Positions 7,502 to 24,814 of a stretch of 24,814 bases of DNA are shown here, one piece after another. The notes under the pieces were generated by a model. That model saw nothing but the letters and a program-made list of their open reading frames with translations, did not search any database and was not told the origin of the DNA. This DNA is from a virus, in the IMG/VR virus record IMGVR_UViG_3300006810_000359, positions 1 to 24,814 of that record. The stretch is one strand, 5' to 3'. The position numbers and the translations under genes are program-made. How positions within the stretch are numbered: the stretch's first letter is position 1; each line of letters begins with the position of its first letter.

Positions 7502-8250
7502 TGGCGTACTCTCCACCCAACACGTTCACTGACGGCGATCCGCTTGAAGCTGCCGACCTCGAAGGCAACGATCAGGCACTGCGGGTGTACCTGCACGAGG
7601 GTGTGGTCGACGCCGACCTGTTGTCCAGCACGCCCTGGGTTGAGGCCCAGCACATCCAGTCCCCGGTGGTCGACCCCATCCGTGGCCTGCAGCACGGCGT
7701 GACCGGGTGGCAGGGCAGCCAGTGGTCGGGCGGCTTCGGTGTGCGGGCACAGTTCGCATCGGTTGCGCTGACGGGCAACCGCTCCGATGCCACGACCGAG
7801 GCCTTCGAGGTGTTGCCCCAGACGGCGCTCACCTTCGAGCTGCGCCACCCTGCGCTGGTCATCTTCCATTGGTGGATGGAGACGTTCAACGGACCGGACG
7901 ACAACGTCTCCAGTGCGTCGGATGCGTCGCTGTACGTGGGTGAGTACACCGAGGCACAGCAGTTTGCCACCGGCCGGGTCGTGCCGACTGCGCCCACCCA
8001 GAGCCTTGTCTCCAGCAACAACCGCGAGGGCTGGGTTCCCAACACCACGAGCCCGTTGCGAGTGGCTGGACCGTACAACCCATACACCATCGGTGGCCTG
8101 GGCAACCTTAGCGGCACCGTCATGCGCAAGGTGGGTTCGGGTGGAGGCTACACCGTGGGCCTGTCGCACCTGACCAGCATTGACCCGTGCTGCATCATCA
8201 ACTGGTCTATTCACATGGAAGCGTACTACACTGGCATCACACTGAACTGA
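7501..8250 (+). CDS. Small tail/fibre-like protein 3, unknown
   Basis: A 249-residue protein starts at ATG 7501, sharing one base with the previous TAA stop, with GGGAG at 7491-7495. The N-terminus reads FTDGDPLEAADLEGNDQALRV followed by GVVDADLL, a classic phage tail-protein N-terminal module. The remainder is beta-rich with a Cys-Cys pair near the C-terminus (DPCCIINW). There is no enzyme motif. It closes a run of three consecutive tail proteins before the internal virion proteins. It is probably a tail appendage or a receptor-facing component; this is inferred from position and layout. Confidence 0.6.
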   Translation: MAYSPPNTFTDGDPLEAADLEGNDQALRVYLHEGVVDADLLSSTPWVEAQHIQSPVVDPIRGLQHGVTGWQGSQWSGGFGVRAQFASVALTGNRSDATTEAFEVLPQTALTFELRHPALVIFHWWMETFNGPDDNVSSASDASLYVGEYTEAQQFATGRVVPTAPTQSLVSSNNREGWVPNTTSPLRVAGPYNPYTIGGLGNLSGTVMRKVGSGGGYTVGLSHLTSIDPCCIINWSIHMEAYYTGITLN

Positions 8251-8257
8251 GGGCACC

Positions 8258-8959
8258 ATGGCTGTAATCCCCGCATTGACTATTGGTGCTATTGGTGCTG
8301 GCGCAATCGCCAACACTGCAGGCGCGTTTGCTGGCGCACGCCAGTTGTACAACCCCGACAAAGAACGCGACCTCTTTATGGCGCAGGCACAGCAGCGTGA
8401 GATTTTGAACCAACAGGTTCAAGCCCAGCGTGCAGCACAGGCTGGGATTACCGCAGACGTGCAAGCGCAGGGCCGGGAGCAGGCAGCCATCATGGGCGCT
8501 CAGGGCGCGTATGGCGGCCGTGAGCAGCTCAACACAGCCTTGGCCCTGCAGGACATTCGAGGACAGCAGGAGGCGGCCCTGGCGGCCGTGGAACAACAAG
8601 CTCGTTTGAAGGCGGAAGCAGAGTTCCAACAAGAAAAAATGGAACTGGCGCAGTTGAAAGACGATGCGCGCGTAACCCGCATTCGGGGCGTTGCTGGCGC
8701 ACTGGGCACTGCGGCTGCGCAGGCCATCCCGGTATTCCAGCAGGGAGCAGCCATGAACTTGCAGCAGTCCTACTTCGACGCCATGATCAAAGGCTTCGCG
8801 AAGCAGCAGGGTGCGCGACAGGCGCAGGCGGCTGCGGCCACCGCCCTTGAGATGGGCATGGTTGGTGGGCTTCAGCCCGGTGGTCCTGTCTCTGCGGTCG
8901 GGGCAGCCTCTCCCGTCGCAGGGGCACCGGCATACATCCCTGGCGTCGACTACCGATAG
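8258..8959 (+). CDS. Putative internal virion / ejection protein, 233 aa
   Basis: The 233-residue product has a Gly/Ala/Ile-rich hydrophobic N-terminus (about residues 4-28, including GAIGAGAIANTAGAFAGA) and then a long Gln/Ala/Glu-rich coiled-coil region (about 45-150). A small hydrophobic patch and an Ala/Gly/Pro tail ending in YIPGVDYR follow. A membrane-active N-terminus joined to a Q/A-rich helix is the typical look of small ejection proteins (T7 gp14 or P22 gp7 type), which leave the capsid and form a channel through the cell envelope. Start ATG 8258 has GAGGG at 8249-8253. It heads a trio of size-increasing genes, matching the usual order of ejection proteins. Inference from composition and order. 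Confidence 0.55.
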   Translation: MAVIPALTIGAIGAGAIANTAGAFAGARQLYNPDKERDLFMAQAQQREILNQQVQAQRAAQAGITADVQAQGREQAAIMGAQGAYGGREQLNTALALQDIRGQQEAALAAVEQQARLKAEAEFQQEKMELAQLKDDARVTRIRGVAGALGTAAAQAIPVFQQGAAMNLQQSYFDAMIKGFAKQQGARQAQAAAATALEMGMVGGLQPGGPVSAVGAASPVAGAPAYIPGVDYR

Positions 8960-8968
8960 GAGCATCCG

Positions 8969-10867
8969 ATGGCCCTTCCAAAGCCGACATTCCTGCCGTA
9001 CCAACCCCAGCAGTTTGCCGATGTAAGCTCAGCCGTGACGCTGGGTATGCAGCTCTTTGGCAAGTATCACCCCTCGCAGCTTCAGCAGTTGCGCTACCAG
9101 CAGATGCTGCAAGAGCGGGAAGGCAAGGAGCGCAGCGCACAAGAGGAGCTGAAGACGATCGCCGAGGAGCGGGCAGCACTCCGTCGGTACCAAACCAGCT
9201 TCCGAGAAGCGGGCCTTGGTCCAAGCGGCAAGGTTCCCCTGACCGGCAGTCGTCAGGCAGGCGGAGGCGGAGCCGGGGGCGGAGCCGGTCGAGGCGGCGA
9301 GTCGATGACAGGCGTGCTGAACGCAGCCGCCAAGTTCTCGGCCAACACGACCGACCGTCGAGGGCTGGCTACGGAGGACCGCAACAGGATTGAGCGCAAG
9401 TACGACATGACCTCTGGCGTCGGCTCACAGCTTGTGGGCGACGTGTTGCGCAAAGCGGAATCCGTAGCCGGTAGTGCAAGCGGCGTCAGCACATCAGCTT
9501 TGTTGGGCGCAATTGCCTCGGCATCGGGTGAGTATTTTTCTCGCATCGAGGGCGTCAACATCTCAGGAGAGCGAAAGGAGATGGCGGCTGCGCGCCTGTT
9601 CGATGCACTCAAGGGGCGGTACAGTGCGAAGGTTGACAGCAACGTAGCGATGGCCATTGATGCAGTGCTCGAGACGCCAGGGTTTTTGACCGGAGCACTT
9701 TCCGAAGGCATCAGCCCGTCAGCCATTATCCGTCAGCGGCAACAGGCTGAGCTCAGCGGTGTCACTGCAGGCCCTGATCGTTTTGAAGAGTTTGCCTTCA
9801 GCAAGCTGCAGACCATTGACACCAACAAAGATGGCAAGGTCAGCGCCGAGGAGCGGCAGACCTACGAGCAGGAGCTTGCGTCGTTTCGCAAAGCCTACGG
9901 ATTGGCGGAGCCACTTACCGATGAAGAGGAGTTCTTCCTTGGCCGGTACATCAACGCGCTAAGCGACGACGGGCAGGCTGATCTCAAAGAGTTCGAAAAC
10001 GAAGCCGAGTACCAGCAGGCGCTGGCTGCCTACGAGAAGGGGCGCAACCTTGAGTCTCTGCCTCGCGGCTTTGCTCGGTTCTACGACGTTGACTACCTCG
10101 CCTCCAAGCAACGCGACTTGCAGCTCCGCGAGCGAGAGGCAGCCCTCCTGGGTCGCGAGACACCCCAGCAGCAGGCAGCACAAGCCTTCCTCGGGCTGCC
10201 AACCGTTAGCGCAGAGGCATTCCAGGCCGCAGCACAGGTCAGCCCACGGGCTGCTGAAGGGCTGCCCTACATGATCCAGCGGTACCAGCAGGCCAACGGT
10301 GACGTGCAGCCCAGGGACCGTGTTGAGCAGACGGCACAACAGCTCATCAGCAGGGGCAACCGCGACTTCAATATGTTCATGCAGCAGATCGACAAGCTGT
10401 ACCCCAACGACAACGATGCCCGACTCAAAGCGGCGGCCTACTACGGGGCAGCGCAGTTCGGTGCTGATGCTCGAGGCTCGACCTTCGACACTGCTACGCA
10501 ACAAGGCAACATCGCTGGCATGGCGCAAGGCATCCAGACTGCAGAGCGACAGTTTGCTTCCGACGTAGAAAGGACAGCAGCGGCCCCGGTCGCTCCACCT
10601 CCTCCTGTCATGGACCCGGCTCAGGCCATGCGTGCTCAGGCAGCGGCCTACGTTGCAGGGTTCACACCCGATGCTGGACAAGCAGCGTATGTGCCAGCAC
10701 CACAGCCCACGGTGATGGAGCGGAGTGGTCTGATGGGTGACGCTACAATCCCAGCGCCACCTGTCGGACCCCCACCGCTAACTGCCAGAGAAATGTTTTT
10801 GCAGAACAACCCAGAGTTGTTTGACCCCATCTACGGGCAGCCAGGCGGCTACACGGCGGGCCGATGA
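8969..10867 (+). CDS. Putative internal virion / ejection protein with EF-hand pair, 632 aa
   Basis: A 632-residue protein starts at ATG 8969, with AGGAG at 8958-8962 overlapping the upstream stop. The N-terminal 80 residues are Gln/Glu-rich and helical, followed by a Gly-rich linker (98-110). Residues 284-295 read DTNKDGKVSAEE, a canonical calcium-binding EF-hand loop with ligands at positions 1, 3, 5, 9 and 12, flanked by helices. A second, degenerate loop (330-341, ending DDGQADLKE, with Ala at position 1) lies about 35 residues on, as in paired EF-hands. The C-terminal region is Pro/Ala/Gln-rich. It has no membrane segment or enzyme motif. Gene order suggests a T7 gp15-like ejection component; calcium binding is predicted from the motif only. 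Confidence 0.6.
   Translation: MALPKPTFLPYQPQQFADVSSAVTLGMQLFGKYHPSQLQQLRYQQMLQEREGKERSAQEELKTIAEERAALRRYQTSFREAGLGPSGKVPLTGSRQAGGGGAGGGAGRGGESMTGVLNAAAKFSANTTDRRGLATEDRNRIERKYDMTSGVGSQLVGDVLRKAESVAGSASGVSTSALLGAIASASGEYFSRIEGVNISGERKEMAAARLFDALKGRYSAKVDSNVAMAIDAVLETPGFLTGALSEGISPSAIIRQRQQAELSGVTAGPDRFEEFAFSKLQTIDTNKDGKVSAEERQTYEQELASFRKAYGLAEPLTDEEEFFLGRYINALSDDGQADLKEFENEAEYQQALAAYEKGRNLESLPRGFARFYDVDYLASKQRDLQLREREAALLGRETPQQQAAQAFLGLPTVSAEAFQAAAQVSPRAAEGLPYMIQRYQQANGDVQPRDRVEQTAQQLISRGNRDFNMFMQQIDKLYPNDNDARLKAAAYYGAAQFGADARGSTFDTATQQGNIAGMAQGIQTAERQFASDVERTAAAPVAPPPPVMDPAQAMRAQAAAYVAGFTPDAGQAAYVPAPQPTVMERSGLMGDATIPAPPVGPPPLTAREMFLQNNPELFDPIYGQPGGYTAGR
9818..9853 (+). other. EF-hand calcium-binding loop (coding motif)
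   Basis: These 12 codons encode D-T-N-K-D-G-K-V-S-A-E-E, residues 284-295 of the 632-aa protein. Asp1, Asn3, Asp5, Gly6, Val8, Ser9 and Glu12 all match the EF-hand consensus. The incoming helix is FEEFAFSKLQTI and the outgoing helix is RQTYEQELASFRKAYG. Confidence 0.8.
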
Positions 10868-13800
10868 GCGCAAGCGAACTGCTTCGCGCAGCAGAGGTTG
10901 CAGAGCAGAAGGGTCGTCCCGAGTCTGCGCGGTTGTTGCGCGAAATGGCAGCGAAGCTCGGTGCCACGCCTGCAGCACCCGCCGCGCCCACGCCTACTGT
11001 GGCCCCTGCGGCTGTACCTGCGCGAACCCAGACTATGTACGCGCCTGACGATACTGGCTTTTCGCCCCCTCCCGGTGCGCCATTGTCGTCCGACAGCATC
11101 GCAACTCGGAGGGCTAGGATACAGGGCGCAGAGTTCATGGAAGACCTGCGCGCTGGCAGGCTTGATCCTGAGGTTCGAGAACGTCAACGCCAGTACCGTG
11201 AAGCGCTTGTTGAGCGCCCACGATTTGGGGGTCGACCGTTTGAAAACATTGAGGCCGGCGCTGTTGTCTATGCGCCTGAGTCACCCGTCGAGCCAGACAT
11301 TGCTCCCGTAGAGATGGACGACCAGCAGGTTGCCATGGAGTTGTCGCTACCTCGCGGCGCTTCCTACATGCGCAGGGCTGCACCAACCGATGCTCGCGTC
11401 TACATGGAACGGTTGCAGGGCCCGCGACCTGATGGGTCGGGCGGCAACATCATCAGGCCACCGGAGCAACGCGGGGAGGACATTGACCTCGAGCGACAGT
11501 TCGCTGCAACATCGGCAGCGGTTCAGGCTTTGCAGGACAAGGAGACCGCCGCGCTCATGGGGCGTACAAAGTACACGCCACAATACGCAGAGCAGAGCCT
11601 GCTCGAGCGCATCAATCCGCTCAGTCAACGTCGGCTTGTAACGCCAGGCGAACAGGCAACCCGGCAGCTTGAAGACCAGTTCATCATGCAGGCCGGAATG
11701 TCAGAGGAGACAGCGCGGGCCGCTGCTCGGGCTGGCACTCGCGACGTGGGTGAGCAGCGACTAACCACACAGGGAGATCCGGTCACAACGGGTGAGCGGA
11801 ATCCGTTCTTCTATGGCTTGGCGGCAGCATTCACGCCTTGGGCGTTGTTGCCGACGTTTCGCGAGAGCCGGTTGCGGGTAACCAAAAAGGTTGACCCAAG
11901 CGATCCGACTCGACAGTTGTACATCGAGCAGTACCGCGATCCCTACACTGGTGACCTGCGCGCTCCCAAGTGGTGGGAACGACTTTCAGAAGCGGTGAGT
12001 CGGCAGGTTTATGCGCCTGATGTGTCCGAAAACATTCGGCGACAGCAAGCGTTTGCTCGACAGACGTTAGCCAGTGAGCTGATTGAGTCAGGCATGCAGG
12101 CCGACGAGGCACGTCGACTGGTGATCGAAACGGTTCGCGACGAGAACCGTGCTCGTAGAAACAAAGTCATCGACATTGCAACCAGAGCAATCCCAGGCTT
12201 CGAACGGGAAGATGAGCGGTTGGACGCGGTTCAAGAACCGCTCATGCGTGGACTGCTGTCCACCACCAAGACAGACTCAGAGCTGGGTCTGCTGCAGGAA
12301 ACCCCAGTCGCACAGCTCTTGCGGAATGCGGGCGTGTTCCCAACGCTGGTCAACACGGCGTTGTTCGAGCTCCTCCCGTTTACCTACGAGATGGACCCCG
12401 AGACCGGCGAGCCCTACGACAAGAACGACCCGGCTTATCGCATCGATCAACTGTTGCGTCAGGGTCTGCGTCTTCGAGGATTCACGGAAGATGAAATCGA
12501 AAGGCGTCGAACCGGTGGCTTTCGGTTGCCCTCTTCGGCTGCGACAACCGGCGTCGGTGCGTCAGGACCGGAGGGGCCGTTCATGCCCGTCCCGTTCCAG
12601 GGTGCCACGCGCACGCGACCCCACGCCATGGATCCCACCGGCATGCGGGCAGCTCGCCAGACTGGCGGCATCGTTGCCAAGTTCGCGGAGGCCCTGCGGT
12701 CGGGTCGATTCTTGGGCGACGAGCTTATGTCAATCCCAGGGTACGTTGCTGAGTTTCCGGTAGAGCCAGCCGAGGTGCAGCCCGGCTACGGAGTTCTCAG
12801 TGAGCGGTATGATGCCATGGAAAATGGCACGCCCACGGCACCGTTCTGGCAGGGCGTTGTCTACGAGGGAGTGTATGGCATCGGCCCTGTCCCAGCAGCA
12901 AGAGCGGCGGCTCGCACTGCGATTGGTGGTACGGAGACCCTTGCGCGAGGAGCGAAAGAGGCCCTTCGTTTCCGGGCTCCGAAGGCAGCCAAGGCTGCCG
13001 ACGTTGTTGAAAAGCTGGCATACGCAGCGGGCGATCCGGTGCAGGCTGCGAAGACCAGCAAGAGCATTCGTATCGCGCAAGAGCTTGCAGAGATGGGTGA
13101 TGTTGATGCTGCCCGCATCAGTGAGATCGAGCTGACCAAGGGCTTGAACAACGCCCAGCGTGTGGCGGCAGAAGCCATCGGCGAAGAGGTGCTTGCGCCT
13201 TACATTCTCCAGGCCCGACTGGAGGCGGGGCCAGCAACAGTCAGTGTTGGTATGGCGAACGACCTTGCTGCCAACAGCAAAGCTGCTCGCACAATCCTCG
13301 AGGACGTAGGCGTACTGAATGGTCCGCGCGATCGGTTGCTCACGCAGTCCGAGATCGCTGCTCTGCGCAAGCAGCTAAACCAGCATTCAGCTTCGGCGTG
13401 GCGTGTTGCGATCAGCGACATCATGTTGAACAACAAGATTAGCGCAAGGCAAAAAGCCCGCGACATTATCGCGTTGCTCGAGGACGAGGGCGTTGTCGTC
13501 AGCGCACTGCCTGGTGGGCCTGACTTGCGGCGTGCATCGAACGCTTCTGATGCGGCAGCCCCGTCGTTGTTGGAGTCAGCCCTGGGGCAGATGGAAGGAT
13601 TGAACAGCGCCATCCCTGTCATGGGCAATCTGCCTGTGATGACAACGCTGCACGACCTGGGGAAACAGGCTGTCATGGGCGCGCGCAGCGGTGGCGATGT
13701 GCAGTTCGGTGGCCGCGCAGGCCGTGTGGTCAATCGTCGCATGGGTGCAGACAAGGTCACTCAAGATCGCATCCTTCGCACACCCGAAGAACTGTTGCGG

Positions 13801-16800
13801 GCTACGTCAGCAGCGGGCGGCCGAGTTGTTGAAAGTGCTCTTGAGAACATCGTTCCCAAGAACATGACCGTTGTCTCAAACAGTCTGATGGTGCCCACCA
13901 ACAAGCTGACCGAGGAGGTGTTTGAAGCTGTCGAGCGGAGCATGACAGCACTGCAGCCCACCGTTCGCAACGGGCCGAAGATTGGCGGCACCGTCTCGCA
14001 GCTCTACTACTTTTCTCCTGATGCTGCCGACGAGTTCATCCGCAGCCAGGGCAAAGCCAACATCGAGCGTTCTGAACTTATGTCAGGCATGCTGCTCCGT
14101 ATGCAAAGCGGCAAGCCTTTGACGGGAGCCGAGGCCCGCATTGTCGAAGACAGCCTGTTGACCCAAGCGTTCCGTGACGCGATGGGCAGTGAGGCTCGCG
14201 AGATTATGTTTGCGGGACGGCAGCTCGAGCGTGCCGAGGAACCGTTGGTTGAGGTGGGTCTCGACGTGCGGCCCGAGAAGCGGGTGCCCAGAACTGTGCC
14301 TGGCTCGGGGCAAGTTATTCCTGGGCGACTGACTGAGGCGGTGTCGGACTTGAAGTTGGTGGCCAAAGAGGCTGGAGGTGCAGCCCTTGGGCGAGCACTA
14401 AACCGAGGAGCAAAGCGCAACGCTCAAGATGCCGACGAGATTGCCACTAACTTCCCGACGCAGGTGGATGCAGACCTGCCCCGCGTACTGCAGCGGGTGA
14501 AGAGCGAGATCGCATCCATCGGCGACAACATTCGAGTTGAGATTCGGGACGCAGCCACCGGGGCAAAGAACCCAGAAGCGGCATTCAACCAAGTTATTCA
14601 GAAGCGCATTGAGCGCCAGATGATAGAGATCACGCAGACAATAGACAAGCGTGCAGAAGAGTTGGCCAAGACCTTTGGCATGACACCCGAGCAGGCGTAC
14701 TTGTACCTGACGTACCAGTCGCCCTCTGCCACCGCGCGTCGAGGGTTGGGCCAGGAGTTGTTCGCAGGCAACATTCCGCCCAACATCAGGCAGCTTGCTA
14801 TTCAGCGAGAGCAGGCCCAGTTGATGATGAATGCCTGGCGTGATGTTCTGCAGGACTTCTTTGGCAAGGATCTGTACGACAGTTTTATGACCGACGGTTT
14901 GTTGCGCAACCTCGTAGCGGTTCCGAATGTTGACCCCAACTTCATTGAGAGTGCTGCCGACGTTGTGCCTTTCACGACTCGCAACCTGCAGGATATGATT
15001 GATGCGCTGCGCATTCGCAACCCCAAGCTGAAAGGGCGCGGGTTGTCCAAGGCTCCGTTTGTCGAGGCGGGTGGAGTCGAGACGCGCGACGGTGTGTTCC
15101 CCGCAATGCTGTCGTGGGCCATGGGTGCCGACGCACGGGTCGTCAAGGAACGATCGCTTCGCGAGCTGGCCGAGACCAACCCTGACTTGTTTGTCAACGT
15201 CATGCCGTCGATCGTTGGGCGCACACCGCAGCGCGTGCAGGGTGAGGCAAGGCTCATCCTCGACAACCGGGCTGGTGCGCTCGATGTACTGAACGAGATC
15301 ATCGAAGCCCCTACCAGCGTTCGAGGCAAGGGCTCTCCACTTCGCGGTCGCGAGAACAGTGTGCGTTTCTCCATGCCCATCACCGATTCACGAGGGCAGA
15401 ACAAGGTCAACGGTCTTGGGCAGATTGAGGCGGGAGAGTCGGTGTACGTGCAAGAGCTGGACAACCTTGCCCGCCGTGCCGGGCTGGCAATGTCCGCACG
15501 CACCCGTCAGCAGATTGCCGAGCAGGTGTTCGAGCAGACCATGATGAACAACCGGTCTGTGCCTGACCTCGAGGAGTTGTTGGGCAACATTGAAACGAAC
15601 GCCAACCTTGACCTCAGTGCGTTCGAAACCCAGGCGACCACCAACGCAATCAAGTCCATCATGCGCGGGCTGGGTGAGGACTTTGCGCTCGCGCGTGCAG
15701 ACCTTGACAACCTGCCACCGGGCACGCCTCCGATCCCGTCGCTCCCTGAGATGATCGAGGGCGGCATGGCTCCCGACGATGTGTTCCGCATGCTGCGCTA
15801 CGCACTCGGCAACGATGACGACGCAACCCTGCTCCAGCACATTGCCTACGCTCGGCACTCCGGTGCGCCCGACGATGTGATCATCGCCGGTCTCCGTCGC
15901 AACATCATTGACAGGGCGTACACGACCTTCGTGCAACCGATGGTTGAGGATATGCGGTCTGTCCGATCAAGCATGGGGTACAAGCCCAACGTCACCAAGA
16001 ACGACCTGTTCAACCTGCAGCGAGAGTTGGAGCTGGCAGACCCCACCTCCGTGCGGCTGGGCCTGTTCGGGCAGCAGTGGAGCGACACGCTCAAAGAACT
16101 GCAGGCTGCCTCTGACTCTGGCAAGTTGGCGCAAAACGTAGAAAACCTGCGAAGACGTGACGCTGCTGCGAAGGCTGTCGACGAGGACATTCCATTGGCA
16201 GAGCGACAGGCGGCCAGGACAGAGGTGGCGATTGAGGCTGTTCGCAGTTTCTTGGTTACCCGTCGGCGCATTGCTGCCAGCGGTGCGCTTGCTGGTGGTG
16301 CGCCCATCCCCCTTCCTTTGGGACGGTACATCGTTCCTAACGCTGTGACCGCGCCTCTTATCGCTATGTCGACGGTGGGTCCGGTCAACGCTGTTCGCAT
16401 GTTGAAGGGGCCAGGCTACGCCTCGCAGCTTGCAGACGTAGAAGGTCAACTTGCCAACATCATCAACAAACCACTGACCCAGGCACGGTCGACCCCCAAC
16501 CCAAGCGAGTACCGGTTCACTTCGAAAACCGGCAAGCGGTGGACGCAAGGCGAGATTGACGAAGCAATCAAGCGCAACAACATTCTCATCAGCCGTGGGC
16601 AGATGGAGTTCAACGACGCTTTCATTGCCGACGTGCTTCGCGATGCGAAGCTGCTCATTGACGCTACTCCTGCCCCGGCCATGCGGCAGCATCTTCGCCA
16701 GCTCGACCCTCGCCGCACCTCGTTCTTTCAGTACGTCGCCAACGCTACAGACAAAGCGTTCCGCGAGAACATGTTTGTCAGCGCATTGAAGCAGGGCATG

Positions 16801-17730
16801 ACCGAAGAGCAGGCTGCACGCATGGCTCGTGCCGTTGTGCTCGACTACGGCGCTGTTCCTGACAAGGTAAAGAACGGCTTCAACCGATACATTCTGTTCC
16901 TGTCGTTCCGTTTTGCCAACTACATGGAGAGCGTGCGAGGCATGGCGCGCGATCCAAACACGTTCATGCGCAGCCTCAATGCCTTGGACAACAGCCAGAC
17001 CCAGAGCGACCTGGCGCTGACCGGGCCCGACTACGTTCGCATGCGGCCTATCCTCAGCAAGATTTACGACTTCGACGAGGGTGCAGGATCGGCGCTGTTC
17101 GGCCCGTCGGTGCCGTTTGGTGAGGCATACGCGGACATGTACCGCTTCGCTACGTGGGCGGCGCAGGCTGGTGCGCGCAACAACAACTTTGTCGGTGCGG
17201 CTGCCGGGCAGATCGAAGAAGAGAACCTCATCCCCTTGCTCAGCCTTGCCATCTCTGCGTACAAGATCAAGGGCAACCTCAGCGACACGGGCTCGAAGGT
17301 TCCCAGCGAGTGGGTGGCTTACGCCATGGGCACGCCCAACAACTTTGTGTGGAGCATGATGCGCGAGCACGTCAAGCCTGTGCCGAAGGACCGCGAGGCG
17401 GGTGGTCGCGTTCGTGCCATGGACCCGATGTACCCGCAAGAAGGGTTTCAGGAATACCAGTGGAAAAGCAAGAACGCAGAGCTGGCGTTCAAGGCTGCTC
17501 TTATGACGTTTGCCTACATGGGCATTGAGCGCACACGAGCAGACTACACCAAGCTGGGCATGACTTACGGAGTCGACGAGTTCCTCGACCCTGCGCGCTT
17601 TGGACTGGCTCCGACGTTGGGCTACGCGACCGGTGTCACAACACCCATCAACTTGGAAAGCATTGAGAAGCAATCACGTCGTGCACTGCGCGAACAGGAG
17701 AAGACTGCGCGCGAACAAGCGCGGGATTGA
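10864..17730 (+). CDS. Giant internal virion protein (2288 aa), polyvalent-protein-like
   Basis: One uninterrupted frame of 2288 residues, about 28% of the window, starts by ATGA overlap with the previous gene. The N-terminal 30 residues form a helical hairpin (LLRAAEVAEQKGRPESARLL), a motif common at the start of large phage-ejected proteins. A Pro/Ala linker follows at 34-57. Hydrophobic or amphipathic patches occur near residues 312-330, 656-690 and 1800-1845. Near the C-terminus, helical residues around FRENMFVSALKQGMTEEQ lead to a VVLDYG motif (Asp1994-Gly1996) and an aromatic ILFLSFRFANY stretch, resembling a segment I associate with polyvalent and large podovirus virion proteins. No lysozyme, protease (HExxH) or polymerase motif could be seen. 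It is probably the T7 gp16-like ejected protein; internal enzymatic domains may be missed by eye. Confidence 0.6.
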   Translation: MSASELLRAAEVAEQKGRPESARLLREMAAKLGATPAAPAAPTPTVAPAAVPARTQTMYAPDDTGFSPPPGAPLSSDSIATRRARIQGAEFMEDLRAGRLDPEVRERQRQYREALVERPRFGGRPFENIEAGAVVYAPESPVEPDIAPVEMDDQQVAMELSLPRGASYMRRAAPTDARVYMERLQGPRPDGSGGNIIRPPEQRGEDIDLERQFAATSAAVQALQDKETAALMGRTKYTPQYAEQSLLERINPLSQRRLVTPGEQATRQLEDQFIMQAGMSEETARAAARAGTRDVGEQRLTTQGDPVTTGERNPFFYGLAAAFTPWALLPTFRESRLRVTKKVDPSDPTRQLYIEQYRDPYTGDLRAPKWWERLSEAVSRQVYAPDVSENIRRQQAFARQTLASELIESGMQADEARRLVIETVRDENRARRNKVIDIATRAIPGFEREDERLDAVQEPLMRGLLSTTKTDSELGLLQETPVAQLLRNAGVFPTLVNTALFELLPFTYEMDPETGEPYDKNDPAYRIDQLLRQGLRLRGFTEDEIERRRTGGFRLPSSAATTGVGASGPEGPFMPVPFQGATRTRPHAMDPTGMRAARQTGGIVAKFAEALRSGRFLGDELMSIPGYVAEFPVEPAEVQPGYGVLSERYDAMENGTPTAPFWQGVVYEGVYGIGPVPAARAAARTAIGGTETLARGAKEALRFRAPKAAKAADVVEKLAYAAGDPVQAAKTSKSIRIAQELAEMGDVDAARISEIELTKGLNNAQRVAAEAIGEEVLAPYILQARLEAGPATVSVGMANDLAANSKAARTILEDVGVLNGPRDRLLTQSEIAALRKQLNQHSASAWRVAISDIMLNNKISARQKARDIIALLEDEGVVVSALPGGPDLRRASNASDAAAPSLLESALGQMEGLNSAIPVMGNLPVMTTLHDLGKQAVMGARSGGDVQFGGRAGRVVNRRMGADKVTQDRILRTPEELLRATSAAGGRVVESALENIVPKNMTVVSNSLMVPTNKLTEEVFEAVERSMTALQPTVRNGPKIGGTVSQLYYFSPDAADEFIRSQGKANIERSELMSGMLLRMQSGKPLTGAEARIVEDSLLTQAFRDAMGSEAREIMFAGRQLERAEEPLVEVGLDVRPEKRVPRTVPGSGQVIPGRLTEAVSDLKLVAKEAGGAALGRALNRGAKRNAQDADEIATNFPTQVDADLPRVLQRVKSEIASIGDNIRVEIRDAATGAKNPEAAFNQVIQKRIERQMIEITQTIDKRAEELAKTFGMTPEQAYLYLTYQSPSATARRGLGQELFAGNIPPNIRQLAIQREQAQLMMNAWRDVLQDFFGKDLYDSFMTDGLLRNLVAVPNVDPNFIESAADVVPFTTRNLQDMIDALRIRNPKLKGRGLSKAPFVEAGGVETRDGVFPAMLSWAMGADARVVKERSLRELAETNPDLFVNVMPSIVGRTPQRVQGEARLILDNRAGALDVLNEIIEAPTSVRGKGSPLRGRENSVRFSMPITDSRGQNKVNGLGQIEAGESVYVQELDNLARRAGLAMSARTRQQIAEQVFEQTMMNNRSVPDLEELLGNIETNANLDLSAFETQATTNAIKSIMRGLGEDFALARADLDNLPPGTPPIPSLPEMIEGGMAPDDVFRMLRYALGNDDDATLLQHIAYARHSGAPDDVIIAGLRRNIIDRAYTTFVQPMVEDMRSVRSSMGYKPNVTKNDLFNLQRELELADPTSVRLGLFGQQWSDTLKELQAASDSGKLAQNVENLRRRDAAAKAVDEDIPLAERQAARTEVAIEAVRSFLVTRRRIAASGALAGGAPIPLPLGRYIVPNAVTAPLIAMSTVGPVNAVRMLKGPGYASQLADVEGQLANIINKPLTQARSTPNPSEYRFTSKTGKRWTQGEIDEAIKRNNILISRGQMEFNDAFIADVLRDAKLLIDATPAPAMRQHLRQLDPRRTSFFQYVANATDKAFRENMFVSALKQGMTEEQAARMARAVVLDYGAVPDKVKNGFNRYILFLSFRFANYMESVRGMARDPNTFMRSLNALDNSQTQSDLALTGPDYVRMRPILSKIYDFDEGAGSALFGPSVPFGEAYADMYRFATWAAQAGARNNNFVGAAAGQIEEENLIPLLSLAISAYKIKGNLSDTGSKVPSEWVAYAMGTPNNFVWSMMREHVKPVPKDREAGGRVRAMDPMYPQEGFQEYQWKSKNAELAFKAALMTFAYMGIERTRADYTKLGMTYGVDEFLDPARFGLAPTLGYATGVTTPINLESIEKQSRRALREQEKTAREQARD

Positions 17731-17779
17731 TGCTACGTGGTAAGGTGTGACCGTCGCCGTCCAAGACTGAGGAGGGACA

Positions 17780-19902: not shown

Positions 19903-20055
19903 ATGCCCGCTGGACTGTACGCCAACATCAACAAACGCAAGAAGGCGGGCACGTCGCGCTCGAAGAAGAAGAGCACGATCGACCCCAAGACCTACTCGAA
20001 GATGAAGAAGAAGAAGGGCGGCTTCGCACCCAAGAAGAAGCGGGGGAAGAAATGA
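19903..20055 (+). CDS. 50-aa Lys-rich microprotein
   Basis: ATG 19903 is preceded by AGGAAG at 19892-19897, and the 50-residue product ends at 20055, overlapping the endolysin start as ATGA. Twenty of 50 residues are Lys or Arg. It begins GLYANINKRKKAGTSRS, close to a GLYANI-(H/N)-xKR motif I know from small conserved phage proteins. It has no hydrophobic segment. It could bind DNA, RNA or acidic envelope components, or be a virion protein; the function is unknown. Its coupling and ribosome-binding site support expression. Confidence 0.6.
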   Translation: MPAGLYANINKRKKAGTSRSKKKSTIDPKTYSKMKKKKGGFAPKKKRGKK

Positions 20056-20468
20056 GCTGGTCGTACAGTCAGCGGTCGCTGACCCGTCTGGGTACCTGTC
20101 ACGAAGACCTCCAGCTTCTCATGCGCGAGGCGCTGGTGGACCCGGACTGCCCGTATGACATCACGGTGCTCGAAGGTCACCGAGGCAAAGAGCGCCAGAA
20201 CCGAGCAGTTGCAGAGGGCAGGAGCAAGTTGCTGTGGCCCAAGTCAAAGCACAACAGCATGCCCTCGATGGCGGTGGACGTGGCCCCTTACGTGGACGGC
20301 AAGGTGTCCTGGGACTGGGACCACTACCACCCCTTGGTCAGCCACATCAAGGACGTGTGGGCCAGGCTGGTTGCCAACGAGTTGGTGACGGGCCAGTACA
20401 CACTGACCGCTGGCGCTGACTGGTCTACACTCCGGGATGGTCCACATTGGCAGTTGGACTCAAAATGA
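20052..20468 (+). CDS. Endolysin, M15-type peptidoglycan peptidase
   Basis: A 138-residue protein, a typical length for single-domain phage M15 endolysins (L-alanyl-D-glutamate or D-Ala endopeptidases). Visible zinc ligands are His67 and Asp76 in SKHNSMPSMAVD and His132 in DGPHWQL, with Asp129 as the likely catalytic acid; this matches the SxHxxxxAxD...DxxHW layout. There is no signal peptide, so it should reach the peptidoglycan after holin-type membrane permeabilisation. It overlaps the 50-aa gene (ATGA) and the spanin-like gene (ATGA), and a GGGGGAAG site lies upstream. The cleaved bond cannot be told from the sequence. Confidence 0.85.
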   Translation: MSWSYSQRSLTRLGTCHEDLQLLMREALVDPDCPYDITVLEGHRGKERQNRAVAEGRSKLLWPKSKHNSMPSMAVDVAPYVDGKVSWDWDHYHPLVSHIKDVWARLVANELVTGQYTLTAGADWSTLRDGPHWQLDSK

Positions 20469-20875
20469 TTCCTGCTCTTATCGTAGGCGGTGTCCTGCTT
20501 TTCGGCGGGGGCATCGCCACTGGCGTTGCTCTCAACCGAGACAAGACGCACAAGATTCTTGAGGAGCAGACGCAGCTGATCGGCACCATTCAGGATGGGC
20601 AACGCACCCTGGTCGAGGCTGCGGGCAAGCCCGTGGTCATCGACGCAGAAGTGCGGGCGACCCTCGCTGAGGTGCCGCCCGCTTGCATCGCGTCCTTGGG
20701 AGGCGACCCGCTCAGCCCGCAGTGCATGCTCCAGGCATGCTGGCAGTACGGGCAGAGCGCTGCCCAACGCCCCGACTGTGATGCTGTCGAGGCGCTGGTG
20801 ATTGCTGCTCAGAAGGGCATGTCTTCTTCAGCAGGCAGTGGTCGACGAGTCGGCGTCGGAGCAGACGAGCGGTAG
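20465..20875 (+). CDS. Spanin-like single-span membrane protein
   Basis: A 136-residue protein starts at ATG 20465 (ATGA overlap with the endolysin); an in-frame TTG at 20447 is less likely. It has one N-terminal membrane helix (about residues 3-23, LIVGGVLLFGGGIATGVA), then a helical, polar domain predicted to be outside the cytoplasm. A cysteine-containing tail carries Cys74, 87, 92 and 105 (PPACIASL, CMLQACWQYGQSAAQRPDC). The position right after the endolysin and this topology fit an Rz-like inner-membrane spanin that disrupts the outer membrane, suggesting a Gram-negative host. The last 22 residues (Ser/Gly/Arg-rich) are coded on the strand opposite the ssb 3' end. No separate outer-membrane lipoprotein partner was found. 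Confidence 0.6.
   Translation: MIPALIVGGVLLFGGGIATGVALNRDKTHKILEEQTQLIGTIQDGQRTLVEAAGKPVVIDAEVRATLAEVPPACIASLGGDPLSPQCMLQACWQYGQSAAQRPDCDAVEALVIAAQKGMSSSAGSGRRVGVGADER
20805..20834. terminator. Imperfect hairpin at the convergent gene junction
   Basis: CTGCT at 20805-20809 pairs with AGCAG at 20830-20834, and AGAAGG at 20811-20816 pairs with TCTTCT at 20822-20827 (one wobble) around a GCATG loop, separated by a small internal loop. It covers the ssb stop codon and lies inside the spanin-like gene. A second 6-bp hairpin (ACGAGC 20865-20870 with GCTCGT 20877-20882) surrounds the spanin-like stop. No T-run follows on either strand, so a bidirectional terminator role is tentative. Confidence 0.3.
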
Positions 20876-21207
20876 GGCTCGTTGTCGTCCTGCTGCTTGG
20901 GCCCAACGAAAGACCAGCTGTCAACGGCCACCTCGGCACTGTGCCCCGTGGAACCATCGCGCTTCTCGTAGGCGCGGACGCTGGCGTTGCCCGACACGGC
21001 GACCCAGCTGCCCTTGTTCAGGTACTGCGCAGCGCGCTCGGCCTGCTTGCCAAACACGGCTGCAGTCCACCAAGTGGTTGTCTTGTTTTCGCCCCAACCG
21101 GTGTCGATGGGGATGGTCAACTTGACGACCGTGGTGCCACGGTTGCTGGTGCGGGATTCAGGGTCGCGGGCCAGGCGGCCAACGAGGGTTGTGTGTGCTG
21201 CACTCAT
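20809..21207 (-). CDS. ssb: Single-stranded DNA-binding protein
   Basis: A 132-residue SSB that coats single-stranded DNA during replication and recombination. The OB-fold is recognisable: LVGRLARDPESR near residues 8-19, WWTAAVFGKQAERAAQYLNKG at about 46-66, then WVAVSGNASVRAYEK. A flexible Pro/Ser-rich linker and the acidic tip EEDMPF at the C-terminus, the usual protein-docking tail, follow. I chose ATG 21207 because GGAG (complement of 21214-21217) precedes it by 6 nt. The ribosome-binding site directly abuts the exonuclease stop (TAAGGAG). Its 3' end overlaps the convergent spanin-like gene by 67 nt. Confidence 0.95.
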   Translation of the reverse strand: MSAAHTTLVGRLARDPESRTSNRGTTVVKLTIPIDTGWGENKTTTWWTAAVFGKQAERAAQYLNKGSWVAVSGNASVRAYEKRDGSTGHSAEVAVDSWSFVGPKQQDDNEPYRSSAPTPTRRPLPAEEDMPF

Positions 21208-21217
21208 GTGTGTCTCC
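21207..21217 (-). promoter_or_regulatory. Shared ribosome-binding leader (AGGAGACACACATG type), ssb copy
   Basis: Upstream of ssb the sequence is AAGGAGACACACATG. The same GGAcACACA spacer occurs before the exonuclease (GAGGACACACATG) and ERF-like genes (AAGGACACACAATG). The RuvC-like start, which is coupled by overlap, lacks it. Confidence 0.6.
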
Positions 21218-21676
21218 TTAGAGCATGTAGTCGGGGGCTTCGATCTGAACGACGTTGCCATGATGGGCCCTGCCGGGCCAAGACTGGGTCACCTCACACT
21301 CGGCGAGGGTGTCCAGCATAGAGCGGTGGGTGAGAAAGGCAGAGTCCAGGGTTGCATCCAGCCACTGCACAACGGTGCAGTCGTGGGGCGCAGCCGACTC
21401 GACCACGATGTTGTAGGCCTTGTACTCCACGAGGTGCAGAGGCACGTCGAAGAGAACGGCGGCTGCATGCAGGTAGTGGGCGTGTTGAATGGGCCACTGG
21501 AACTTGGCCCCCTGCCTGCGGATCTGCTCAGGGTCAGTGGTGAAGAAGGTCTTGAGGTCTGCGACCACCAAGCCCCGCTCCTCGCTGTAGTGCACGATGT
21601 CGAGCTTGGCCTTGCACTCGCAGGCTTGGTCCTTCCAGATGCTGACCTTCTCCGTGAACGTGTTGGGATGCGACAA
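21218..21676 (-). pseudogene. Exonuclease (RecE/PD-(D/E)XK type), C-terminal part after an in-frame amber
   Basis: This is the catalytic half of one exonuclease frame. The frame runs without interruption from just after the TAG at 21710-21712 to the TAA at 21218, and continues in phase with the upstream fragment. It holds the nuclease core CKAKLD (Asp141 of the joined protein) and VADLKT (Asp155, Lys157), the PD-(D/E)XK pattern, and a QHAHYLHAAAV stretch like the Q-x3-Y of RecE-type nucleases. The first start-like codon is TTG 21676 with no Shine-Dalgarno site, so independent translation is doubtful. Joined with the N-terminal part the length is 267 codons before the stop, normal for the family. 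It may be a pseudogene, a sequence error or a readthrough product. Confidence 0.7.
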
Positions 21677-21709
21677 CAGTTCAGCAACCCAAGGGTGCTC
21701 GTTGACCTG

Positions 21710-21712
21710 CTA
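21710..21712 (-). other. In-frame amber codon splitting the exonuclease
   Basis: Codon 104 of the joined exonuclease frame is TAG, in the context GCG TAG CAG GTC. Coding character is unbroken on both sides and the frame is unchanged, so a single base change would restore the gene. The base after the stop is C and the next codon is CAG, partly like the CAR-YYA context of leaky stops, but the following GTC does not fit. TAG ends several other genes here, so it is not globally reassigned. Confidence 0.85.
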
Positions 21713-22021
21713 CGCCATGGCAACCACGAGCTCGTGCTCTTGCGGAGACAGCACGTCACGGTCACCGACGGTCTCGAGGAATGCTTTGTATGCCTTCTGC
21801 CTCTTGTCTCTCTTGCCCTCGTACACAGCAAACTGCTGGTCGAACGTGAACGGCTCGAGCACGAGGCAATGGGTCGCGCGTCCGAGACGGAAGGCTGCGT
21901 TGTCGGCAGCCGGGTGCTCGGAGTTGTGCCTGTAGTGCAGTGGGCTCTTGGCCATGTGCTTGAGCTTGCTGTAGTTTACAGCCGGGTAGGCCCGGTACTG
22001 TGCGTCGGTCATGTCATTCAT
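21710..22021 (-). pseudogene. Exonuclease (RecE/PD-(D/E)XK type), N-terminal part
   Basis: 103 residues run from ATG 22021 to the amber codon. The start is supported by GAGGA upstream and by overlap with the RuvC-like stop (ATGAATGA). An in-frame TTG at 22039 is less likely. The sequence AYPAVNYSKLKHMAKSPLHY and FRLGRATHCLVLEP (with His51) is the N-terminal hallmark of RecE-like exonucleases of the PDDEXK family (DUF3799 or exonuclease VIII-like), where similar text reads S-x-LK...SP-x-H(Y/F) and LG-x-A-x-H-x-LVLEP. Those enzymes resect double-stranded DNA to feed a single-strand annealing protein, here the ERF-like product upstream. The fragment lacks the catalytic Asp and Lys, so alone it should be inactive. 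Confidence 0.75.
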
Positions 22022-22550
22022 GTGTGTCCTCGGGGTCAAGGGCAGGAAGAAGAAGGTGTGCGAAGACTACGCCCAGCGCCTGCCACGCATGGGATGACAC
22101 ACCGTAGAGAGGACCAGGGTCAGCCTTCTTGCCGATGGCTACCTGGCGTGAGCCCCCATGAATCTCAATGAGGGCGTTGCGAACGTGCGAGTCCTTGTTG
22201 CCGTGCCGTGCACAGCCCAAGGCTTGGAGTACCTGCCGTCGGTAGTACAGATGGCAGTCCATCTTGCGGGCCGCACAAGCCTCCCAGATCCGTCCTACCA
22301 CCTCGGTGGTACGAACGACTTCGGTCGACGGTGGGCCCGCCTGTGTGCGCTCTACGGCCACGCTGCAGGGTGTGCCGGATTGGGCAGCCCGGCGACGCCA
22401 GGCATCGAGAGCAAAACGCACCGTGTCGAGGGACGCCTGCTTCTCTGTGTGCAGCACCCGACCCACTGCCCCCTCCTCCGGTACCTCGTACACGACGAGG
22501 CCAGAGGCAAGGGGGCCGGGGTCGACCCCGATGACGAGCCGCTTAGGCAT
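22014..22550 (-). CDS. RuvC-like Holliday junction resolvase
   Basis: A 178-residue protein with the RNase H-like fold expected to cleave branched DNA made by replication and recombination. Asp10 lies in VIGVDPG at residues 6-12 (first acid), Glu67 in VAVERTQ (second acid), and SSHAWQALG (His154) occupies the third motif where RuvC proteins have an Asp/His-rich DAL-type signature. The central GNKDSHVRNALIEIHGG and DPGPLYGV segments are the phage RuvC-like pattern. I chose ATG 22550, which overlaps the ERF-like stop (ATGCCTAA). A GGTGGTG site lies just upstream. It overlaps the exonuclease start by 8 nt. Confidence 0.85.
   Translation of the reverse strand: MPKRLVIGVDPGPLASGLVVYEVPEEGAVGRVLHTEKQASLDTVRFALDAWRRRAAQSGTPCSVAVERTQAGPPSTEVVRTTEVVGRIWEACAARKMDCHLYYRRQVLQALGCARHGNKDSHVRNALIEIHGGSRQVAIGKKADPGPLYGVSSHAWQALGVVFAHLLLPALDPEDTHE
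22019..22033 (-). promoter_or_regulatory. Shared ribosome-binding leader, exonuclease copy
   Basis: The complement reads CCGAGGACACACATG, with GAGGA as Shine-Dalgarno and ACACAC as spacer, inside the RuvC-like 3' coding end. It decides ATG 22021 as the start over the TTG at 22039. Confidence 0.6.
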
Positions 22551-23244
22551 CGTCACCACCGGGGGTTGGCACGACGACGGCCTGTTCTGCCTGCTCGGCT
22601 GCATCAGCCTGTGCCTGGAAGTGAGCGCGGACGATGTCGCCCTTGTCGGTGCGCAGCCAGCGGATGACAGCCGCCCGGCGGGCGTTGTTCATCTTCGCAA
22701 CCTGGGGTCGCATGGCCGCCAAGCACCACTGGTCGAGCTCGGCCAGGGTGAGGTCCACGTCGAGGCAGGCCTGCTCAACATCAGCCAGCGTCACCTCGGG
22801 GGCAGGCGGTGCAGCCACCCGGGCGGGCTGAGCCTGGACGGGGACGGCCCGACCCACGGCTGCGTTTCCATCATCGTCCCCCTGCATCAAGCCACTGATG
22901 CTGGAGGCAGAGTAGCGACGCAGGTAGGAGATGCAGCTGCCCATGGCGTGGGCGTCACGTCGCTTGCCGATGGGCATCGACATGGTCGACCGCATCCACT
23001 GCCCGCTGCTGTGTGTGACCACCGTGGTGAGGGACACGAGGTCGCCGTCGAAGGTGGGGTGCTGTATGAGAGACAGGCCGTGCCGGTTGAGGGCAGGCAG
23101 GATGGCCCCCAGCACGGAGCTGAGCGTGCTGTACTTCGACTTAAAGTGCGGGTTCTTTGCATCGTAAGCGGCGGCCCGCATCTCACCCTGTGCTTGGGCC
23201 AGTGCGTGGAAGAGCTGCTGCATGTTGTCGGAGGTTTCGTACAT
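22543..23244 (-). CDS. erf: ERF-family single-strand annealing protein
   Basis: A 233-residue recombinase of the ERF (essential recombination function) family. It pairs complementary single strands, typically partnered with an exonuclease and SSB, both present downstream. Diagnostic text is KNPHFKSKYSTL at residues 30-41, HGLSLIQ at 55-61, and SCISYLRRYSASSISGL at 103-119, followed by DDDGNAA. The N-terminal 130 residues carry the core. A Pro/Ala linker near 133-150 and a helical C-terminal region with acidic Ala/Glu/Gln tail follow, of unclear role. Start ATG 23244 has AAGGA 7 nt upstream. It overlaps the RuvC-like start by 8 nt. Confidence 0.9.
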   Translation of the reverse strand: MYETSDNMQQLFHALAQAQGEMRAAAYDAKNPHFKSKYSTLSSVLGAILPALNRHGLSLIQHPTFDGDLVSLTTVVTHSSGQWMRSTMSMPIGKRRDAHAMGSCISYLRRYSASSISGLMQGDDDGNAAVGRAVPVQAQPARVAAPPAPEVTLADVEQACLDVDLTLAELDQWCLAAMRPQVAKMNNARRAAVIRWLRTDKGDIVRAHFQAQADAAEQAEQAVVVPTPGGDDA

Positions 23245-23256
23245 TGTGTGTCCTTG
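23242..23256 (-). promoter_or_regulatory. Shared ribosome-binding leader, ERF copy
   Basis: The complement reads CAAGGACACACAATG, with AAGGA as Shine-Dalgarno, in the short gap between the VapE-type gene and the ERF-like gene. It is the third copy of the same leader and supports ATG 23244. Confidence 0.6.
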
Positions 23257-23268
23257 CTGTTGGGCAGG

Positions 23269-24814
23269 TCAGCCGACCTGCAGATGGAGTGAGGGTGGGC
23301 GTTCGCCCTGCATGCCTCGGACCGCAGACAGTCCGTCGTTGGTGTGCATGCTGTCGGTGTCTTTGTAGTAGATGACGAGGCCCTTGCTGCGTGTGCGCTT
23401 GAATCCCACACGTCGCAGTGCCATCGCTAAGCTGTAGCCGCGGGCCTGGGCGGACAGTTTCTGGTCGATGGCTTTGGCAAACTGTCCGATGGTGAAGCCG
23501 TTGGCTCGGCCACCCCCGTTGGCATCGAGCGCCATGACTGCACACTGGGTGTACCAGTCAACGCCCAGGTACTGGTCGTTCTCGAGTGCTCGCCTCTTGT
23601 CCTCGTCTCGTGTCAACCACCACTGCTCGCCCGAGCGGTACAGGTGCACGGCCTCGGCCAGCAGTTGGTCGCGGTTGTCGCGCAGCCATTCGAGGTTGGC
23701 CTCCTTGCCGTAGGCACACTGCACCACCCAGTAGCGGCGGCTGCCTGTCGGGTCTCGGAGCAGCCCCTCGCACTCGTTGGTGGTGCCGACGATGACCGTG
23801 TGCCGCTTGAAGGTACGGGTCTTCCTGCCGTAGGGTGGACGGAAGCGGTCGATGGCAGAGGACAGGAATGCCTTGCGTGCCTCTTGCTTGCGCACACCCT
23901 GGCTCGCCATCTCGGCGTCCTCGTAGAGAAGCGTGGAGTAGAGGGCCATCAGACCATCCTTGTCCCCCAGCACAATGGGTGTGTCCGAGAACAGTTCGCT
24001 GTCGAAGCCGGGCCAGTCGACCAGGGTGCGGAAGATGGTGCTCTTCCCAAAGCCCTGCTGTCCGGTAAGCACGAGGCAAGTATCAAGCTTGCACCCTGGC
24101 TTTAGCGTGCGTGCCACCATGCCGATGAGGAATCGCTTGCCGTAAGAACGGAACAGCTCACGGTCGTCCAGCCTGCAGGTCTCGATGAGCCATCGCTCAG
24201 CGCGAGGCACGCCGTCCCAGTGCAGCCGGTCGAGGTGCTCAGCCACAGGGTTGCGCTTGCGCTCGTTGGCCACAGTCTCCACGGCAGAGAACACCAAGTC
24301 CTTGCCCGGCCTCCAGAACCACTGGTACACCAGCTCCATCCGCTGCTGGATTGCAAGCCACGTCGCATCCGTGACGGGCTGGTTGCCCATCATCTCAATC
24401 TGACGGAAGCCGTCGTACCACAGGTCGTAGGCATCGTCGTCTCGCAGGAGAGCCATGAGGTTGGACACCGTGTTGTACGGCTCCCCCTGCCCTGTCTTGC
24501 TGGGCTTGCGCAGCAGATCGGCCAGCCCGTTGCGGGGCTGCACGACGTGCGTGTTCCAGTACGTGGTGTCGGTCGGGCTGGAGTAGTACCTGGCCCTGCC
24601 GTCCCGTTCCTTGGCGAAGAACCCAGAGCCCACGGACGAGCCGCCGAAGGGACACACGACTCGAACGCGCTCGCCGGGGGCCAGGGTCTGCGCGATGAGC
24701 TGCCAGGATCTGCCATCCTCCAGCGTCATCGAACGGAAGTCACACTCTACCCTGCGCGCACGCTTGGGGCGAGCCGGGCGGGGGACAGGACTCTCGTCTG
24801 CGCTGCCACCGAGG
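23269..24814 (-). CDS. VapE-type P-loop ATPase / replicative helicase-primase (5' partial)
   Basis: The frame stays open to the right edge, so the N-terminus is outside. An ATG at 24729 is an internal candidate only. Counting from it, HLDRLHWDGVPRAERWL lies at 165-181, PGCKLD at 211-216, Walker A GQQGFGKST at 223-231, EDAEM at 270-274 (Walker B-like), DRFRPPYGR at 294-302, GTTNE at 315-319, and arginine-finger-like DPTGSRRYW at 326-334. This is the virulence-associated-E ATPase pattern. In phages such proteins often carry an upstream primase domain and act in replication initiation. The C-terminal 100 residues are helical, with no recognised domain. The stop lies 24 nt before the ERF-like start. 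Confidence 0.85.
   Translation of the reverse strand, partial: LGGSADESPVPRPARPKRARRVECDFRSMTLEDGRSWQLIAQTLAPGERVRVVCPFGGSSVGSGFFAKERDGRARYYSSPTDTTYWNTHVVQPRNGLADLLRKPSKTGQGEPYNTVSNLMALLRDDDAYDLWYDGFRQIEMMGNQPVTDATWLAIQQRMELVYQWFWRPGKDLVFSAVETVANERKRNPVAEHLDRLHWDGVPRAERWLIETCRLDDRELFRSYGKRFLIGMVARTLKPGCKLDTCLVLTGQQGFGKSTIFRTLVDWPGFDSELFSDTPIVLGDKDGLMALYSTLLYEDAEMASQGVRKQEARKAFLSSAIDRFRPPYGRKTRTFKRHTVIVGTTNECEGLLRDPTGSRRYWVVQCAYGKEANLEWLRDNRDQLLAEAVHLYRSGEQWWLTRDEDKRRALENDQYLGVDWYTQCAVMALDANGGGRANGFTIGQFAKAIDQKLSAQARGYSLAMALRRVGFKRTRSKGLVIYYKDTDSMHTNDGLSAVRGMQGERPPSLHLQVG

Follow-up and report, generated by a model that had tools for sequence, protein, structure and literature searches.

For phage ejection proteins, a gene order of gp14-, gp15- and gp16-like has been described; known gp15-like proteins, listed at 431–982 aa, are matched mostly by size and synteny, and gp16-like proteins are listed at 609–1337 aa (PMC8954989, in its accessible parts). 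The words calcium and EF-hand are both absent from those parts of that account of gp15-like proteins. A phage protein that does have an EF-hand-like calcium site is the lysin LysGH15, where the site is reported to switch activity; in the text available it belongs to the CHAP endolysin domain, whereas the loop described here lies in a presumed internal virion protein (PMC4022735). The PROSITE EF-hand signature has been sought in the structural proteins of one phage and, according to the accessible portion of that report, none was present (PMC5889276). Among the matches listed in the open-licence literature searched, no ejection protein was described as having an EF-hand. A calcium site in such a protein would bear on what drives ejection proteins from a packed core to a trans-envelope conduit.

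The window analysed here is the entire 24,814-base IMG/VR virus record IMGVR_UViG_3300006810_000359, probably a fragment of a virus genome. Its plus strand carries a podovirus structural module: major capsid and tail genes, followed by open reading frames (ORFs) of 233, 632 and 2288 aa. The major capsid protein has a PHROG match to the Mx8 family (phrog_9953), and the structural gene order is similar to that of Mx8-like podoviruses; however, capsid identity to the seven phage records found is only 24–28% and there is no gp15 match. Two scans of genome contigs found no relative, and therefore no host or prophage was identified.

The 632-aa ORF (8969–10867, plus strand) follows the tail genes and lies between a gp14-like ORF (233 aa, 8258–8959, plus strand), so called from position and size, and a larger gp16-like ORF (2288 aa, 10864–17730, plus strand), called from its position, in which its relatives are likewise placed. 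With T7 gp15 and gp15-like proteins it shares this gene order, an all-helical prediction and a size inside the listed range (PMC8954989, as far as its accessible parts go). It differs from them in having no sequence match among 50,697 phage records (tblastn, E≤0.01), no PHROG match and no significant fold match in Foldseek searches, none of which brought out T7 gp15 or P22 gp20, and in its far larger gp16-like partner, which exceeds the 609–1337 aa listed in the available text of PMC8954989. By place and size only, the ORF is probably a gp15-like member, and tunnel formation by its product is presumed. An earlier reading of this DNA made from the letters only (the sequence-only reading) had named it a putative phage ejection protein, a name that gene order and size support; resemblance to a named ejection protein, in sequence or in fold, does not add to that support.

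In the gp14-like ORF the peak hydrophobic 19-residue stretch is N-terminal (mean Kyte-Doolittle 1.67). The gp16-like ORF has zero Pfam matches at E≤1; its complete-looking relatives have open frames of about 2136–2264 aa.

The loop and its predicted surroundings

Residues 284–295 of the gp15-like protein (9818–9853, plus strand) form a canonical EF-hand-like loop, DTNKDGKVSAEE, with D1, N3, D5, G6, V8, S9 and E12. The EF-hand loop pattern D1, D/N3, D/N/S5, G6, I/L/V8, E12 is present in DTNKDGKVSAEE and, the window included, in 8 of the 17 family rows compared below. When the 632-aa protein was shuffled 200,000 times, the canonical pattern, with position 9 a ligand and Glu at 12, arose at a frequency of 4e-5; for a looser loop pattern the figure was 8e-4. 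Among 2976 distinct ORFs of at least 150 aa, nine carry the strict pattern and all nine are gp15-like; six other ORFs match the looser pattern only. The claim that these residues match the calcium loop at every ligand position is upheld by the sequence, and shuffling would not lead one to expect it.

The loop resembles those of calmodulin, Entamoeba-type calcium-binding protein and calbindin in its 12 residues, standard ligands and predicted flanking helices; the protein differs from EF-hand calcium proteins in its single loop, its polar position 13 and scores under the Pfam cut-offs. The EF-hand consensus is usually hydrophobic at position 13, and EF-hands usually occur in pairs; here, all eight loop-bearing rows have a polar residue at position 13 (R, Q, N, E or D).

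Structure was predicted with a family-based AlphaFold core model (15 sequences, mean pLDDT 78.8, pTM 0.37), whose residue numbers are those of the protein minus 139. DSSP assigns an entering helix to residues 271–283 (9779–9817, plus strand), a loop to 284–292 and an exiting helix to 293–310 (9845–9898, plus strand), so that a helix-loop-helix with flanking helices, as expected of an EF-hand, is predicted over 271–310. At the loop pLDDT is moderate (about 64–78), against 86–91 in the blocks on either side; the loop therefore sits in a connector, which in the core model joins two helical blocks at about residues 140–260 and 318–360. Because pTM is low, the packing of these blocks in the model is not to be trusted. 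The only EF-hand chain found across model residues 130–173 was 3fwc_A, of the Sac3:Sus1:Cdc31 complex (judging by its length, chain A would be Cdc31), with a Z of 3.1, no better than unrelated rows. A full-length AlphaFold model (mean pLDDT 55.7) was too poor to rely on and was set aside; it has bridge residues at 331 and 337 in the second loop considered below and none in the first.

Recurrence and loss among relatives

Direct searches with the 632-aa protein found one near-copy, L002 (98%). An alignment of capsids led to 80 loci, including relatives at 36–40%, and a further relative, at 43%, was reached by way of record handles and the 2288-aa protein. The 249-aa tail protein whose gene lies directly upstream was also used for a scan, which gave 26 loci, with 20 ORFs matching the gp15-like profile at E≤0.01. 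From the last scan for relatives came a single new contig, L130. Few contigs were returned by scans with P0001, A2 and A4, and among these no loop state was new. Stenotrophomonas phage Siara gave weak tblastn hits, which lie not on an ejection gene but on a hypothetical ORF of 94 aa next to a dCMP deaminase, and were discarded. A more distant clade with 50–60% capsid identity (L021, L026, L028, L030 and L035) has the same gene order; its proteins at the gp15 position are not among the profile matches (E≤10) and hhalign found nothing.

The comparison set comprises 17 gp15-like rows, of which 16 hold the loop segment. Repeats of contigs already used were dropped (L118, L037, L092–L094, L096, L097, L099–L101 and L122–L140 except L130), as were L112/L011, L119 and L120, which stop short of the loop site; L010, L013, L106, L115 and L121 yielded no gp15-like ORF. 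The partial L105, whose loop is as in L104, was left out of the tree and of A9, A10 and A12; L117, which lacks the segment, was left out of A9 and A10 and retained in the tree; L130, a later find, was left out of A9, A10 and A12.

Eight of the 17 rows have a full loop: the window (DTNKDGKVSAEE) and L002, L104 (DANGDGVVTEEE), L130 (DADGDGTVTEQE), L113 (DADGDGTVTPEE), L111 (DTDGDGVVSPQE), L107 (DADGDGKVSASE) and L110 (DTDGDGKVSPEE). These make up six lineages (window/L002, L104/L130, L113, L111, L107 and L110), in all of which the loop occupies one alignment position. Two rows (L014 and L022) have it in degenerate form, in six (L103, L102, L109, L116, L114 and L108) no loop is left, and one row is without the whole segment: the gp15-like protein at L117:11429-13204 lacks both the EF-loop and the ALxDDG stretch, profile positions of about 262–378 being skipped.

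Across representatives of the six loop-bearing lineages, which share 32–51% pairwise identity over core residues, D1, [DN]3, D5, G6, V8, [ST]9 and E12 do not vary. Mean identity among them is 66% in the loop, 41% in the core, 34% in the preceding 20 residues and 18% in the following 10, and the loop ranks 22nd of 362 12-residue stretches by identity. On an unrooted tree built without the loop columns, in which several deep forks are unresolved, loop state has to change five times, at least three of the changes being forced by well-supported branches; whether loops were gained or lost cannot be told.

From the first relatives (L002, L095/L103, L014 and L022) the loop seemed private to the window, ligands having been lost in L095, L014 and L022; the scan with the 249-aa tail protein refuted this by bringing out the loop in five further lineages. 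Among distinct relatives, those closest to the window (L103/L095 and L102, at about 42% identity) have indeed lost the ligands, and more distant ones keep them. Against the refuting conditions named in the sequence-only reading (a predicted structure without helix-loop-helix, or ligands lost in closely related proteins) the outcome is thus mixed: helix-loop-helix is predicted, and the ligands are all kept in 8 of the 17 rows and lost in the closest distinct ones. Recurring in diverged lineages and absent elsewhere, the loop is more than an accident peculiar to the window and less than a constant feature of the family; and since 9 of the 17 rows are without a full loop, it is not essential to family function. 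It looks like a genuine but optional part of gp15-like proteins. The loop is in a known kind of protein; its recurrence in six diverged lineages lay beyond what the sequence-only reading could see, and it strengthens the case for a single EF-hand.

Pfam EF-hand_5 scores E = 0.0015 with the whole 632-aa protein and E = 9.6e-5 with a 107-aa segment (22.1 bits against a cut-off of 25.9); the pair model, EF-hand_7, scores 0.083 and 0.0033, respectively, and all the Pfam EF-hand scores given here fall under the curated cut-offs. At E≤0.1, EF-hand_5 touches 6 of 14 family segments and, with full-length proteins, only two of five loop-bearing relatives; EF-hand_7 matches one of the 14 segments. Searched singly against the PDB, the window segment gave six matches at E≤1 (best E 0.005), which we take to be EF-hand proteins. 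A profile of six loop-bearing segments (about 100 aa) matched 261 distinct PDB sequences at E≤1, with a best E of 4.9e-8; each of the 60 listed is an EF-hand calcium protein or a fusion that contains one, and the alignments fall mainly on the first loop. As a control, eight loop-less segments taken from the corresponding position were made into a profile, which gave 11 PDB matches and zero EF-hands. A search against EF-hand families, proposed as a check on the loop, thus comes out positive with the loop-bearing profile in the PDB and below cut-off in Pfam.

Readings of the loop

The reading that we favor, at a probability of roughly 0.6, is that of a single EF-hand-like Ca2+ site: the loop would belong to a gp15-like tunnel protein of an uncultured podovirus and would stiffen a connector between helical blocks. 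Placed between the blocks at about 140–260 and 318–360, a Ca2+-occupied loop would fix the angle of helices 271–283 and 293–310; with that angle fixed, we propose, the connector would be stiffened, and a stiffened connector could lend stability to the core while it is packed in the virion or else, after ejection into the calcium-rich periplasm, to the straightened conduit. Ca2+ binding at the site is likely; Pfam scores below the cut-offs, a polar position 13, a lone loop, moderate pLDDT, fold searches free of significant matches and the nine of 17 rows without a full loop count against this reading.

The main rival, which we consider unlikely, is a helix-capping turn that has the look of an EF-hand: S/T9 and E12 would form an N-cap box, DG would be the turn, and no calcium would be bound. 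The sub-threshold Pfam scores and the polar position 13 in all eight loop-bearing rows suit such a turn, as does the alignment, where S/T-x-x-E persists in four of the six ligand-less rows (L102, L109, L114 and L108). Capping, however, leaves D1, [DN]3, D5, G6 and V8 unexplained: these residues do not vary across six lineages, and none of the six loop-less rows has them all together. Nor does capping account for EF-hands being found by the loop-bearing profile and not by the loop-less one. The sequence-only reading had instead proposed a true EF-hand pair, with a second, weaker loop at residues 330–341 (9956–9991, plus strand; the end given for it, 9988, falls inside residue 340) as its odd member. 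The spacing of the two loops is plausible, the EF-hand_7 alignment spans 277–343, and D5, G6, E12 and L/F13 of the second loop are kept in all 16 rows that hold the segment. Yet this loop reads ALSDDGQADLKE, in which Ala and Ser fill ligand positions 1 and 3; Ala330 is kept in 16 of 16 rows, eight of them without a canonical first loop, and position 3 is R, S or A. Residues A330, L331, D333, D334, G335, A337 and E341 are likewise invariant in the 16 rows, whatever the state of the first loop. In the core model 318–334 is a single helix and 335–338 alone a turn (pLDDT 86–91), so that half of the second loop is helical. The loop-less segments all retain the ALxDDGxAxxxE motif of the second loop, yet their profile matches no EF-hand protein in the PDB. 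Because of the Ala at position 1 and the helix over 318–334, the second loop is not a canonical EF-hand; with EF-hand_7 below its cut-off and matching one segment in 14, the pair is not borne out and we regard it as very improbable. Extended to ALxDDGxAxxxE[L/F] (9956–9994), the stretch is the best-kept motif in the region.

A site that is empty in the host cytoplasm at assembly and fills in the periplasm could also act as a switch, driving an arch-to-rod change of gp15; the sequence-only reading had already raised the idea that calcium in seawater or the periplasm triggers a conformational change or stabilises the conduit. Such a switch is possible, at decidedly long odds. Two confidently predicted blocks flank the site, which is at about 45% of protein length, and T7 gp15, as it rearranges, bends at residues 305–306 of 747 (PMC8954989, in its accessible parts), a suggestively similar place in a protein that is unaligned with ours. 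Against a switch, calcium goes unmentioned in the available text of the T7 papers searched, PMC8954989 among them, and loop-less relatives presumably eject as well. Capsids let small ions through, and therefore the site may already be calcium-loaded in a seawater virion.

Apparent exchange of the ejection cassette

The gp14-, gp15- and gp16-like genes of the window (8258–17750, plus strand) appear to have been exchanged as a block relative to L102. Outside this cassette the two are near-identical at the amino acid level (97.6–99.6% in four upstream genes and 99.3% in the downstream gene), whereas within it the gp14-, gp15- and gp16-like proteins share 41–44% identity, and the L102 cassette is loop-less. 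At the DNA level, identity of 96.7% ends at 8322 at the latest and resumes at 17752 with 97.4%, placing one border near 8250–8322, where the gp14-like gene begins, and the other near 17750, just past the gp16-like stop. L103, 88–91% identical upstream, has a cassette of the loop-less type found in L102; L002 and L003 carry the window's own cassette on the same flanks in other contigs. The drop in identity between near-identical flanks suggests that the ejection genes move as one block between close relatives and take loop state along; the apparent exchange could also stem from chimeric assembly in L102.

A broader view, which we hold improbable, is that this uncultured podovirus family takes Ca2+ as a signal of the compartment during genome delivery: a hinge EF-hand in the tunnel protein would be unoccupied or under strain while the core is packed and calcium-locked in the periplasm, and the whole gp14-15-16 cassette would be swapped, calcium dependence included, while the rest of the virion is kept. 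The window and L102 form a natural contrast pair, with loop-bearing and loop-less cassettes in near-identical surroundings. With a putative calcium site in some tunnel-protein lineages and loop-less relatives so close, a role for calcium becomes testable in one phage background.

Elsewhere in the window, an endolysin-like ORF lies at 20052–20468 (phrog_465, E 2.1e-34), and the minus strand carries replication and recombination genes at 20809–24729: SSB, DUF3799 (PDDEXK-like), an ERF recombinase and a VapE-like primase-helicase.
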